From assembly GCA_024742285.1 (NCBI GenBank), contig JANSYR010000001.1:744001-808000 (forward strand): a DNA stretch of 64,000 nucleotides, read 5' to 3'. Positions 6,979 through 55,567 of the stretch are shown here, piece after piece. Every line of letters begins with the position of its first letter. The first letter of the stretch is position 1. Below the pieces are notes generated by a model. That model searched no databases. It saw nothing but the letters and a program-made list of their open reading frames with translations, and was not told where the DNA came from. The position numbers were made by a program, and so were the translations under genes. This DNA is from a bacterium (lineage in GTDB: Bacteria > Myxococcota_A > UBA9160 > UBA4427).

Positions 6979-7056
6979 CGTCTTACTTGGCCGTCTTACT
7001 TGGCCGTCTTACTTGGCCGTCTTACTTGGCCGTCTTACTTGGCCGTCTTACTTGGC
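6979..7056 (-). repeat. Six perfect 13-bp tandem repeats over the coxIII stop
   Basis: Six exact head-to-tail copies of CGTCTTACTTGGC (plus strand). The sixth copy (7044-7056) encodes the last residues and TAA of coxIII (GCC AAG TAA on minus); the other five extend downstream. Because 13 is not a multiple of 3, the TAA occurs in every reading frame. Perfect identity implies recent expansion by replication slippage. Confidence 0.95.
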
Positions 7057-20376: not shown

Positions 20377-20913
20377 ATGCGAGCCATCCGACGAACCCCC
20401 TTCCAGCGCGCCTTTCTCCCGATCGCGGGCCTGACCCTCGCGACCCTCACCGCCGGCGGCGCGCTGGCGGAGGGCGAAGCCGAAGAACGTCTCCGCGAGC
20501 GGGGCGACCGCGTCGAGGAACGACTCGACCGCAAGGGTGACCGCGTCGAGGAACGACTCGACCGCAAGGGTGACCGCGTCGAGAAGCGGCTCGACCGCAA
20601 GGGCGACCGGGCCGAGCGACGACTCGAAGAGAAGGGCGAGCGCATCGAGCGCAAGGGGGAGAGACGCGCCGAACGTCTGCGCGAGAAGGGGCGCGACGCC
20701 AAGGCCGATCGGGTCGAAGAGAAGGCCGAGCGCCGGGGCGAGCGCCTCGAGCGCAAGGGGGAACGGATCGACCGCAAGCTCGATCGCCGGGGCGAACGCC
20801 GCGACCAGAAGCTCGACCGCAGGGGAGATCGGAAGGAGCGCAAGCTCGACCGCAAGGCCGAGCGAAAGGCAGAGCGAAAGGGCGAACGCGAACGGCGCCG
20901 AGGCGAACGTTAG
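20377..20913 (+). CDS. Secreted charged protein with 11-residue repeats
   Basis: A 178-residue protein with a signal peptide (residues 1-31, ending AGGALA) and then almost only Arg, Lys, Glu, Asp, Gly and Leu. From G43 the chain consists of about twelve units of the form GDRVEERLDRK or close variants; the first three copies are nearly identical at the DNA level (33-bp period). The 11-residue period fits a hendecad coiled coil or a stable single alpha helix of ER/K type, held in the periplasm or outside the cell. No family was recognised and function is unknown. It stands alone between the HD gene and the thioesterase gene. Confidence 0.75.
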   Translation: MRAIRRTPFQRAFLPIAGLTLATLTAGGALAEGEAEERLRERGDRVEERLDRKGDRVEERLDRKGDRVEKRLDRKGDRAERRLEEKGERIERKGERRAERLREKGRDAKADRVEEKAERRGERLERKGERIDRKLDRRGERRDQKLDRRGDRKERKLDRKAERKAERKGERERRRGER

Positions 20914-51737: not shown

Positions 51738-52517
51738 ATGGAATACGTCGAACCCAGAGAAGCCCGCGACATGCCGGGCCTGCGCCTCGCGCTCACGACC
51801 GGTGTCCCCGGACCCTGGGGCGAAGCCGCCAAGGCGATCTTCGCCGTCAAGAAGCTCGACTACGTCCCGGTCCGGCAGACGGCGAGCGAAGACAACGCGG
51901 ACCTCGTCGCCTGGACCGGCTTCCGGAACGCACCCCAGGCGATCTACGAAGACGCGCCCGCGCGGATCGGCTGGGAGGAGATCCTCGCCCTCGCGGAGCG
52001 GCTCGCTCCCGAGCCCGCCCTGGTTCCCGCCGACGAGGGGGAACGCGCACTCGTGATGGGCATGTCGCACGCGCTCTGCAGCGAGGATGGACTCGGCTGG
52101 AACCGAAGGCTCCAGCTCCTCGACCCCATGCTCTCGGCTCCGGACGCGACCGAGAACCCGGCGCTGGCCGGCACCCGCGTACTCGGGCGCGACTACGGTT
52201 GGAGTCCGCAAGCGACGGAGCGCGCGAACGCGCGGATCGTCTCGATCGTCGCCTTCTTCTCGGGTCAGCTCGCGAAGCAGCACGCCGCCGGGCGCGAGTA
52301 TCTGGTGGGCGAGGCGCTCTCCGCGGTCGATCTCTACTGGGCCGCGTTCTGCGCGATGCTCCGGCCGCTGCCCGAGGAGCACTGCCCGATGCCCGAGTTC
52401 CTGCGGATGGCCTACGGGACGACGTCGCCGGAGACCGACGCGGTCCTCGATGAGAAGCTCGTGGCCCACCGCGACCTCGTCTACGAGCGTCACGTGGGCC
52501 TGCCCCTCGACTTCTAG
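51738..52517 (+). CDS. Glutathione S-transferase-like protein
   Basis: A 259-residue protein with a thioredoxin-fold N-terminal domain (LTTGVPGPWGEAAKAIFAVKK, RNAPQAIYEDAP, the latter with the cis-proline) and a helical C-terminal domain that includes YLVGEALSAVDLYWAAF, the N-capping box of GSTs. It is somewhat longer than typical GSTs (about 210). No catalytic Ser, Tyr or Cys can be named by eye. Start ATG 51738-51740. Confidence 0.82.
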   Translation: MEYVEPREARDMPGLRLALTTGVPGPWGEAAKAIFAVKKLDYVPVRQTASEDNADLVAWTGFRNAPQAIYEDAPARIGWEEILALAERLAPEPALVPADEGERALVMGMSHALCSEDGLGWNRRLQLLDPMLSAPDATENPALAGTRVLGRDYGWSPQATERANARIVSIVAFFSGQLAKQHAAGREYLVGEALSAVDLYWAAFCAMLRPLPEEHCPMPEFLRMAYGTTSPETDAVLDEKLVAHRDLVYERHVGLPLDF

Positions 52518-52521
52518 GGGG

Positions 52522-53259
52522 TCAGTCGGTCACCGCGTCGTCGAAGCGCCAGGCACCCCGTCGGGTCTCGGTGGCGAGCGCGGCTTCCAGCCGATCGAGG
52601 AACGCCTCCCGCGTCCATTCGACGGCACCGAAGCGCGCCAGGTGTTCCGTCGCCATCTGGCAGTCGACGAACGCGAAGCCCCAGCGTTCGAGCTGGGACA
52701 CGAAGGTCGCGAACGCGATCTTCGACGCGTCGTCCGCGTGCGCGAACATCGACTCGCCGAAGAAGGCTCGCCCGAGCGAAACCCCGTAGAGCCCCCCGAC
52801 CAGCCGCTCCCCCCCGCCCTCTTCCTGCCAGGCCTCCACGCTGTGCGCGAAGCCGAGCGCGTGCAGACGGCAATAGGCGTCGACCATGTCGGGGGTGATC
52901 CAGGTGCCGTCCTGATCGGGACGCGGCGTCTCGCGGCACGCGCGAATCACGTCGGGGAACGCTTCGTCCATCGAGATCCGATACGGCACCGCGCGCAGCC
53001 GCTTCGCGAGGGAACGACCGACGTAGAGCTCGCCCGGGACGAGCACCATCCGCGGATCCGGCGAGAACCAGAGGATCGGGTCCTCGTCGTACCAGGGAAA
53101 GACGCCCTGGGCGTACGCTGCGATCAGCCGCTCGGGCGAGAGATCCCCGCCATAGGCGAGCAGCCCGCGCTCGTCGACGTCCCGCGGATCCGGAAAGGGC
53201 AACGCCCGCACGAGCTCATCGATCAGACCGCGCGTCGTGCGAGGTCCCGACTCACTCAT
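52522..53259 (-). CDS. aat: Leucyl/phenylalanyl-tRNA-protein transferase
   Basis: A 245-residue enzyme of the N-end rule pathway, which adds Leu or Phe to proteins with N-terminal Arg or Lys and so sends them to ClpS/ClpAP. Signatures: GLLAYGGDLSPERLIAAYAQGVFPW (split: first part LLAYGGDLSPERL), WFSPDPRMVL, GTWITPDMVDAYCRLHALG, SVEAW and LVGGLYGVSLGRAFFGESMF with the active-site region. Start ATG 53257-53259 overlaps a TGA through ATGA, the last of three such junctions in the 32-bp repeat upstream. Confidence 0.96.
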   Translation of the reverse strand: MSESGPRTTRGLIDELVRALPFPDPRDVDERGLLAYGGDLSPERLIAAYAQGVFPWYDEDPILWFSPDPRMVLVPGELYVGRSLAKRLRAVPYRISMDEAFPDVIRACRETPRPDQDGTWITPDMVDAYCRLHALGFAHSVEAWQEEGGGERLVGGLYGVSLGRAFFGESMFAHADDASKIAFATFVSQLERWGFAFVDCQMATEHLARFGAVEWTREAFLDRLEAALATETRRGAWRFDDAVTD

Positions 53260-53323
53260 CGTGTCGCGCCCAATCGCCGGCCCTGCCTCATCGTGTCGCG
53301 CCCAATCGCCTGCGCTGCCTCAT
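53256..53323 (-). repeat. 32-bp tandem repeat forming a chain of coupled mini-ORFs
   Basis: Between LOG (stop 53320-53322) and aat (start 53259) a 32-bp unit is repeated, and each boundary contains GCGACACGATGAG. On minus, LOG's TGA overlaps an ATG that opens MRQRRRLGATR (53288-53323); its TGA overlaps an ATG that opens MRQGRRLGATR (53256-53291); its TGA overlaps the aat ATG. The likely ancestor was a single ATGA overlap between LOG and aat that expanded by tandem duplication, keeping coupling. Verified base by base. Confidence 0.9.
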
Positions 53324-53919
53324 CGTGTCGCGAACTCCACCGCGTTGTCCGGCCACGGCTCCGTCGACTCGATCGCCGGCAGGATCTGCTCGACGCGATC
53401 GACGGACTGCCAGATGTCGAGGTGCTGATCGTTCATGAATCGTTCGGCGACGCTGCTCTCGAGCAGTTGGAAGAGCGGGTCGTAGAAGCCGTTCTGGTTC
53501 AGGATCACGATCGGGTGGGAGAAGATCCCGAGTCGCTTCGACGTGATCGCGTCGAAGAGCTCCTCGAAGGTGCCGCTGCCGCCCGGGAGCGTGACGATCG
53601 CGTCGGCGGTCTCCAGCATCAGGCGCTTGCGCGTCTGCATGTCCTCGACCAGCTCGAGCTCGTGGATCCCGTGATGGGCCCACTCCAGCTCGCGCATGAA
53701 GCGCGGGATGATCCCGACGACGCGGCCGCCCTCCTCGAGGGCCGCATCGGCCATCGCCCCCATCGAGCCGACGGCACCCCCGCCATACACCAGCGTGTGA
53801 CCCGCCCGCGCGATCTCACGGCCGAGGGTCGCCGCGGCGTCGTGGAAATGCGGCGCGCAGGCGGTGCTCGAAGCACAGAAGACGAGAATGCGGCGCGCCC
53901 GGGCGCTCTCTGCGGTCAT
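53320..53919 (-). CDS. LOG family phosphoribohydrolase-like protein
   Basis: A 199-residue Rossmann-like protein of the LOG (lonely guy) family, TIGR00730-type. The signature PGGSGTFEE lies at 112-120, with the GGGAVGSMGAMADAAL helix near 46-61 and a DMQTRKRLM helix before it. Bacterial members release a base from nucleoside monophosphates, usually AMP or cytokinin-type nucleotides; the role here is not established. ATG 53917-53919 is the chosen start, with GAGG upstream; a TTG at 53949 is also possible. Translationally coupled to aat through the mini-ORFs. Confidence 0.92.
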   Translation of the reverse strand: MTAESARARRILVFCASSTACAPHFHDAAATLGREIARAGHTLVYGGGAVGSMGAMADAALEEGGRVVGIIPRFMRELEWAHHGIHELELVEDMQTRKRLMLETADAIVTLPGGSGTFEELFDAITSKRLGIFSHPIVILNQNGFYDPLFQLLESSVAERFMNDQHLDIWQSVDRVEQILPAIESTEPWPDNAVEFATR

Positions 53920-54361
53920 CGCGGCCTCACGCCCCCGCTGGGCGCCCAAGTTGACGGGGTTCCGGATCGCCCGTAGGTTTGCGGCTTCAGGTCTGAATTC
54001 AAGGGGTTGATTTCAGGCACTTGCAGACCCTTTCCTAGGCCGGACCCCGCGCCTTTTCCTGGGCCGGACCCCGCCGTTTCAGGCGGATGCCTGTAGCACG
54101 ATTCGGGATGCCCCCGTGGCTGCCGAGTCGTTCGCCGGAAAGCACTCGTGAAACGCGGGTGGTTGTTGCTAAGTGCCCCTTCTTGATCGAGAAGTGTCGA
54201 CGTCTCGTCCGTCCGCGTTCGCGCGTGCGGTCGCGTGACGAAGCGAGCGGAGCTTCGAATCCGCCCGCCGAGGAACGCGACGTACGTGCGGGCTTCGTTT
54301 CCCTCCGACCCGGGAAGCGAGGGCGCCGTGCCCCGACGACCTCGATCGAAAGCGAGAACAC
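53920..54361 (+). other. 442-bp gap and leader of trans-sulfuration gene
   Basis: No supported gene. A direct repeat of 23 nt (54028-54050 and 54052-54074, 21 of 23 positions identical, containing GGCCGGACCCCGC) lies at the left. From about 54170 the sequence can form hairpins such as GAAGC/GCTTC near 54240-54265 and GCCCGC/GCGGGC near 54265-54295, so the mRNA leader of the gene at 54362 may be structured. I compared it with known SAM riboswitch cores and found no match. Confidence 0.4.
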
Positions 54362-55567
54362 ATGTCCGATCGAAACGATTTTCCGGAAGAGCCCAGCGAT
54401 CGCGGGAACGCGACGAGCTCCGTCCACGCCGGCGAGCTGCGACAGCAGGAAGCCAACGCGATCACGACGCCGATCTACCAGACGTCGACCTTCTGGTTCC
54501 GCAACTCGAAGGAGGTGACGGACTACCAGGAGGGCAAGAGCGACCGCGAGGAATACGGTCGCTACGGCAACCCGACCTGGGCCGCCGTCGAGCGAAAGAT
54601 CAGCGCTCTCGAAGGCGGCGAAGAGACGGTCCTCTTCGCGTCGGGCATGTGCGCCGCCACGACGACCTTCATGGCGCTGCTCGACGAGGGCGACCACCTG
54701 ATCGTGACGAGCGACTGCTACCGCCGGACGCGTCAGTTCATCGAGCAGTTCCTCTCGCGCATGGGCGTCGAGACGACCGTGATCGAACCGTCGAATCTGG
54801 AAGCCTTCCGCGAGGCGATCCGGCCGAACACGAAGCTCTTCTTCACCGAGTCGCCGACCAACCCGTACCTGCGCGTGGTCGACGTCCCCGCGTTCGCCTC
54901 CGTCGCGCACGCCAAAGGCGTGAAGATCATCATCGACTCGACCTTCGCGACGCCGGTGAATCACAAGGCGCTCTCCGACGGCGCGGACCTCGTGCTGCAC
55001 AGCGCGACCAAGTACCTGGGCGGCCACAACGATCTGCTCGCCGGCACGCTGACCGGACCGAACGAGCTCGTCGATCCGGTCCGCAAGGCGCTCGGCGTCC
55101 TCGGCGGGATCATCGACAGCCACGCGGCCTGGCTCCTGCTGCGCGGGATCAAGACCCTCGACATCCGCATGGAGCGCCACAACGCCAACGGCCTCGCCCT
55201 CGCGCAGTACCTCGAGAAGCACCCGAAGGTCAGCAAGGTCTTCTACCCGGGCCTCCCGTCCCATCCCGACCACGAAGTCGCCGAGCGCATCATGAACGGC
55301 GCCGGCGGCGTCGTCACGTTCGAGATCGATACGGACCTCGAGGGCGCGATGCGCTTCATCGACGCGACGACGATTCCCTACCAGGCGCCGAGCCTGGGCG
55401 GGGTGGAGAGCCTGATCGAGCTCCCCGTCACGATGTCCTTCTGGGACAAGCCGAAGGAAGAGCGCCTGCGCCTCGGGATCACCGACACGCTCGTTCGATA
55501 CGCCTGCGGCATCGAGAACGCCGACGACATCATCGCGGACATCGAGCAGGCCCTCGGCAAGGTGTGA
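54362..55567 (+). CDS. PLP-dependent trans-sulfuration enzyme (cystathionine synthase/lyase family)
   Basis: A 401-residue aminotransferase-fold enzyme of the Cys/Met metabolism family. The PLP lysine is K217 in SATKYLGGHND; YGRYGNPT (65-72) contacts the phosphate of the neighbouring subunit; FASGMCA and DSTFATP complete the site. Cystathionine gamma-synthase, beta-lyase, gamma-lyase and O-acetylhomoserine sulfhydrylase cannot be separated by eye. ATG 54362-54364. A long, possibly structured leader precedes it. Confidence 0.9.
   Translation: MSDRNDFPEEPSDRGNATSSVHAGELRQQEANAITTPIYQTSTFWFRNSKEVTDYQEGKSDREEYGRYGNPTWAAVERKISALEGGEETVLFASGMCAATTTFMALLDEGDHLIVTSDCYRRTRQFIEQFLSRMGVETTVIEPSNLEAFREAIRPNTKLFFTESPTNPYLRVVDVPAFASVAHAKGVKIIIDSTFATPVNHKALSDGADLVLHSATKYLGGHNDLLAGTLTGPNELVDPVRKALGVLGGIIDSHAAWLLLRGIKTLDIRMERHNANGLALAQYLEKHPKVSKVFYPGLPSHPDHEVAERIMNGAGGVVTFEIDTDLEGAMRFIDATTIPYQAPSLGGVESLIELPVTMSFWDKPKEERLRLGITDTLVRYACGIENADDIIADIEQALGKV

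Follow-up and report, generated by a model that had tools for sequence, protein, structure and literature searches.

The gene for a LOG-family protein and aat, which encodes leucyl/phenylalanyl-tRNA-protein transferase, are joined on the minus strand of the window (the whole 64,000-nucleotide stretch of DNA analysed here) by two very short reading frames lying within a tandem repeat. The question is how such a junction arose and whether a ribosome may be passed along it. LOG and aat are linked through two 32-bp repeat units having one ATGA each, which make an unbroken stop/start chain from LOG through MRQRRRLGATR and MRQGRRLGATR to aat. The upstream gene, LOG, occupies 53320-53919 and was identified by TIGR00730 (180 bits against a cut-off of 96) and also by Pfam PF03641; its start at 53919 is the one chosen by us, the listing of open reading frames placing a TTG start at 53949. 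The protein ends in ...EFATR. The 3' end of the gene reads ...GAG TTC GCG ACA CGA TGA, with the stop TGA at 53320-53322, and its last bases form the first ATGA overlap (53320-53323), where mini-ORF 1 starts. Mini-ORF 1 (MRQRRRLGATR and its stop, 36 nt, 53288-53323) shares the second ATGA (53288-53291) with mini-ORF 2 (MRQGRRLGATR and its stop, 36 nt, 53256-53291), which in turn shares the third (53256-53259) with the start of aat. The downstream gene extends over 52522-53259 and was identified by TIGR00667 (200 bits, cut-off 144). The chain of three ATGA overlaps within a 32-bp repeat, described earlier in a sequence-only reading of this DNA, is confirmed, and the span given for it, 53256-53323, is exact. 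With two units present in that span, LOG and aat share a reading frame that is split by the LOG TGA alone; readthrough of this stop would yield a LOG-Aat fusion.

The array was reported by TRF at 53255-53332 with a period of 32, 2.4 copies and 95% matches, and comprises two full units that are 30/32 identical and a partial third unit within the LOG end. Searched with up to three mismatches, a core of 23 bases from the unit is found at two sites in the window, both of them here, against 0.01 expected from shuffles. The pattern ATGA-N28-ATGA-N28-ATGA has a single occurrence in the 6.5 Mb genome, at LOG-aat, and none in the reversed control. Upon comparing the 201-base junction with the genome, the locus itself being excluded, the best match was just 22 bases long. 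A mobile or dispersed repeat was rejected for the LOG-aat unit, a second copy being absent from the genome, and there is no LOG and no aat on the 11 named contigs that share a 20-base part of the unit. An assembly artefact is unlikely because the closest relative, G003, bears its own array at the same junction. Elsewhere in the window, a 13-bp unit, CGTCTTACTTGGC, is present in six perfect copies (6979-7056), and two 33-bp tandem arrays are situated at 20502-20854, the first of which contains a GTGA pair at a lag of 33.

The fold of the junction is no more stable than its composition predicts (z +1.72 in the window and -0.44 in G003), and RNA structure was rejected as the function, excess folding being absent from both. 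A scan of 52400-54400 for sigma-70-like promoters found none, where 0.1 would be expected in shuffles; being confined to one promoter type, it is a weak test in a GC-rich host.

Repeat number was compared in close relatives, as the sequence-only reading had proposed, using a sample of nine genomes of the genus that includes the window's own (G000). LOG lies directly before aat in 8/9 of them, and no aat was found in the ninth, G007. The number of units in the eight genomes having the pair is 0, 2 or 3. Six members have zero units: LOG and aat overlap directly by ATGA in G004 and G008 and by GTGA in G005, G001 and G002, and in G006 the LOG stop and the aat start are one base apart. G003 has three 32-bp units that are unlike the window's in sequence, with ATGA in all of them and four ATGA overlaps; its mini-ORFs, MRRGLRGGATR, MRRGLRRGATR and MRRGLLASATR, are each opened and closed by ATGA. 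A repeat lacking ATGA in some of its copies, named beforehand as a case against the chain, was not found in these relatives, and the direct overlaps of the zero-unit genomes agree with the earlier proposal that an original LOG-aat overlap was duplicated.

The identity between units, 30/32 within the window, is 26-31 of 32 within G003 and 19-23 between the two species. The conserved columns gather at the ATGA. On superimposing the circular units of G000 and G003, 19 successive columns of 32 have at most one difference (P 0.016), whereas the flanking four-fold sites of the two species are about 58-70% identical. A tree of eight neighbouring proteins groups G000 with G003 (support 80.5/79). One origin of the array or two would both fit, because the alternative groupings, G000 with G004 (AU 0.37) and G003 with G004 (AU 0.06), are not rejected. 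A position of the array fixed throughout the family was rejected: of the 21 family loci checked outside the genus, 5 have a LOG match before aat and none has units, and the examined stretch of the others contains no LOG match.

The best reading of these observations, and one that is probably correct, is that a translationally coupled junction was duplicated in tandem, which is tolerated where the length of the unit keeps a route for termination and reinitiation. The ancestral genes would have overlapped by ATGA, or by GTGA as in some of the relatives, and the segment containing the overlap would have been duplicated and amplified in the lineage of the window's species and G003. Duplicating x-ATGA-y would give upstream-x-ATGA-y-x-ATGA-y-downstream, in which both genes would survive at any length. 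At a repeat length of 2 mod 3, translation from the first ATG would take y in the downstream frame and then x in the upstream frame up to the TGA, so that a restarting ribosome would translate a short chimeric ORF that stops within the following ATGA overlap and continue onward to aat. At 0 mod 3, the downstream protein would acquire an N-terminal extension, and at 1 mod 3, the restarted ribosome would enter aat out of frame. The chain is preserved by a repeat length of 2 mod 3 and broken by one of 1 mod 3; a length of 0 mod 3, with its longer downstream protein, is tolerated as well. Ribosomes finishing LOG would reinitiate at successive ATGAs until aat is reached, and lengths that break the chain would have been purged by selection.

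ATGA arrays that are unrelated in sequence recur at gene junctions across the order, of which 79 genomes were searched for three ATGA at fixed spacing with periods of 31, 32, 33, 34 and 35. The search yielded 3 rows at period 31, 28 at 32, over 100 at 33, 8 at 34 and 28 at 35. Every row at periods 31, 32, 34 and 35 was turned into a locus. The period-33 rows are mostly coding matches, many of them from one homologous gene; 30 loci and 4 further places were measured, and the remaining rows were judged by eye to be non-repetitive coding matches or low-complexity repeats. Arrays were accepted at a unit identity of at least 60%, low-complexity sequences being excluded. In each of them we measured the ORF whose stop falls precisely on the first ATGA and the ORF opened by the last one.

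With both ORFs at least 100 aa long, there are ten arrays of period 32, six of 35, none of 31 and one of 34, and two of period 33 among the measured places; the control periods were picked with period 32 already in view, and the cut-off of 100 aa was set after an initial look at the arrays. Requiring the downstream ORF alone gives 10 arrays at period 32, 11 at 35, none at 31, 2 at 34 and 3 at 33. The length is 2 mod 3 rather than 1 mod 3 in 16/17 two-sided arrays (binomial P 1.4e-4) and in 21/23 by the downstream-only criterion (P 3.3e-5). These P values are somewhat optimistic, because the 16 arrays represent 7 genomes and 14 distinct junctions, LOG-aat and purF-glutamine synthetase each being counted twice; taking 14/15 instead of 16/17 gives, by hand arithmetic, a P of about 5e-4. 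The lone two-sided array of period 34 follows fumarase, and a recognisable downstream gene is absent.

Pfam matches are present on both sides of 9/14 arrays other than LOG-aat. Judged by our reading of these matches, the junctions join a glutamine amidotransferase/phosphoribosyltransferase (purF type) to glutamine synthetase, a trmB-type methyltransferase to rlmN, psd to a CDP-alcohol phosphatidyltransferase (pssA type), Ala_racemase_N (yggS type) to proC, rnfC to rnfD, ybeY to lnt, a sigma factor to a bactofilin-domain protein, a response regulator to PilZ, and one ArsA ATPase to another. The purF-glutamine synthetase junction has two 32-bp units in G073 (L100) and two in G074 (L115) that differ in sequence, and to judge from this it repeats the LOG-aat picture.

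The lengths found at these junctions bear on the strongest competing explanation, that the arrays are neutral minisatellites. Replication slippage would duplicate short segments in a GC-rich lineage, and the mini-ORFs would be rarely translated by-products without importance. Any copy of the unit necessarily brings its ATGA along, neither gene is disrupted at any length, and tandem arrays occur away from junctions too. In a test of breadth across the phylum (377 genomes, the sample being those rows among the matches listed that were judged tandem by eye), periods 31 and 32 are similarly common outside the order, 32 not being in excess and no bias being seen, and none of these sampled arrays has long ORFs on both sides. 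However, neutrality does not predict the 16 to 1 excess of 2 mod 3 over 1 mod 3 at the junctions of the order, and the 19/32 well-conserved columns around the ATGA, set against the divergence of the four-fold sites, also speak against it. This explanation is considered unlikely.

A scan of 1.28 Mb for single duplications containing ATGA, GTGA or TTGA gave, among non-targeted junctions with two ORFs of at least 100 aa, six with a length of 0 mod 3, two with 2 mod 3 and one with 1 mod 3; the scan was partly targeted (about half of its G037 part), and the counts are our reading of the list. With six junctions against two, extending the downstream protein in frame at its N-terminus is an outcome no less common than the relay. 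In viral contigs, with both ORFs at least 60 aa long, at least 3 junction arrays have periods of 29, 32 or 35 and none of the matches listed has a period of 28, 31 or 34, numbers too small to decide. A phage contig from IMG/VR (L326, 1707-1806) has three coupled mini-ORFs in perfect 32-bp copies, flanked by a 326-aa ORF and a tail assembly chaperone, and L573 has three 29-bp units. Several 31- or 32-bp ATGA arrays with CCTGGCACCCG-type motifs (L224-L228, in G089) are situated away from coupled junctions and look like a dispersed repeat family.

All 37 mini-ORFs of the 16 two-sided arrays are open from the ATG to the next TGA, because the duplication itself makes them so. Comparison of the first mini-ORFs with their own flanking proteins found 76/128 C-terminal residues in common with the upstream protein and 23/64 N-terminal residues in common with the downstream protein, and 0/20,000 re-pairings reached the 76/128 or the 23/64 sum. 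For example, VFGPREGTT yields MTVFGPMEGTT, VRKARAG yields MTPQTVRKARAG, and MKPPVPS together with AAESTS yields MKPPILAAESTP. Most mini-ORFs resemble the downstream protein at their N-terminus and the upstream protein at their C-terminus, as a duplicated junction predicts, and the origin of the LOG-aat array by duplication is well supported. The LOG-aat units share only 3/8 C-terminal and 0/4 N-terminal residues with the flanking proteins, the ATR ending alone remaining, and are therefore likely to be old or diverged. A link between the Arg-rich peptides and the substrates of Aat, mentioned in the sequence-only reading as probably due to chance, finds no support and was rejected: the peptides encoded by chains elsewhere are unrelated, and the ATR ending is a copy of the FATR of LOG.

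The pairing of the internal and final starts of the 16 arrays with the anti-SD sequence has a mean of -6.95 kcal/mol, compared with -5.11 kcal/mol when shuffled. The successive values are -6.7, -4.3 and -3.5 in the window and -3.8, -8.4, -7.2 and -4.3 in G003. Unlike the mean of all arrays, the SD-like match before aat in the window (53263-53280) is weak; such a motif is often present before a start used for reinitiation but is not a requirement. Many units have strong runs before the ATGA, down to -10.8 kcal/mol at an internal or final start, as might be expected if it were the initiation site that was duplicated, the extra SD-like sequence and start recruiting new ribosomes, with the mini-ORF acting as a leader cistron and the chain being of minor importance. 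The arrays at L151, L164 and L177, which lie before genes but have no long ORF running up to their first ATGA, fit this explanation as well. It is nevertheless quite improbable, as the match before aat in the window is weaker than that at the LOG end (-3.5 against -6.7) and recruitment by itself leaves the avoidance of 1 mod 3 unexplained. The sequence-only reading had also proposed that the aat to LOG ratio is adjusted by repeat number. Such a rheostat, in which units would be gained and lost to this end and only a fraction of the ribosomes would continue at every reinitiation, is in keeping with the variation in unit number within the genus but is very improbable as a reading of the sequences, since adaptive tuning cannot be shown from two species with units.

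Returning to the duplication of a coupled junction, the rarity of 1 mod 3 at junctions suggests that restarts do happen there and that it matters where they lead, whether through a need for coupling or through interference from ribosomes in the wrong frame. The passage of a ribosome through every step, as the sequence-only reading had it, is supported indirectly by the strong preference of junction arrays for lengths that keep the chain, and it is likely that the ribosome would be passed along in this manner. The same preference lends indirect support to a possible dependence of the downstream gene on translation of the upstream one.

A broader proposition is put forward only tentatively and is rather doubtful. 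Serial ribosome relays, that is arrays of coupled 11-12-codon cistrons, might be a recurrent class of operon element in the order, born by duplication and held in phase by selection; they might act as evolvable attenuators, with the stoichiometry of the flanking genes governed by the copy number, and the length bias might show that post-termination ribosomes restart only where a start is immediately at hand, without scanning. Natural duplications of junctions put 20-100 nt between coupled genes, and the lengths that survive read out the rule of reinitiation for many genes with no need of reporters. Should the bias prove to be widespread, it would provide an evolutionary assay for operon junctions that depend on coupling and show a route to new, very short cistrons.

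In the full-text literature searched, mostly without subscription papers, no title or abstract describes tandem-duplicated chains of stop/start-coupled cistrons; the words tandem, duplication, insertion and repeat are absent from a 2023 paper on coupling, and duplication and repeat are absent from a 2025 review. The closest known systems are the ATGA (NTGA) termination-reinitiation pairs (PMC6728339, PMC10666635; reviewed in PMC12548453), which have the same -4 nt stop/start overlap as each LOG-aat step. Removal of the SD sequence strongly lowered reinitiation in 4/5 E. coli pairs (PMC6728339), 15 nt from the end of the upstream gene are enough for coupling, and coupling drops steeply with the distance between stop and start, about 20 nt of extra distance having nearly abolished it in six pairs (PMC10666635). 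The review mentions other studies in which coupling occurred across larger gaps, and a dispute as to whether the terminating ribosome travels tens of bases or needs an immediate start (PMC12548453). Since about 20 nt nearly abolished coupling, LOG and aat would be expected to lose their coupling across a 64-nt gap that lacks mini-ORFs; the chain would offer the ribosome a path across this gap. The known pairs and LOG-aat may also be alike in lacking a promoter between the genes, none being seen here by the sigma-70-like scan, and in having an SD-like sequence inside the upstream ORF. However, the known pairs consist of one overlap between two full genes, whereas LOG-aat has three or four overlaps in a row, middle cistrons of 11 codons and a unit that is a tandem repeat of variable copy number.

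Classical bicistronic designs combine an internal SD sequence with a stop/start overlap. In the leader-cistron designs of synthetic biology (PMC5995908, PMC6302717), a short leader cistron is likewise put ahead of a gene and coupled to its translation (PMC5995908). The LOG-aat chain differs in being natural, in having several leader cistrons in series and in being derived from the junction rather than from an external cassette. Bacterial minisatellites, or VNTRs, are head-to-tail repeats with units of some tens of bases, and related genomes differ in the number of copies. As in minisatellites, the LOG-aat copies are more alike within a species than between species; unlike minisatellites, the arrays described here sit on coupled junctions, with their lengths limited to the phases that keep a path for translation.
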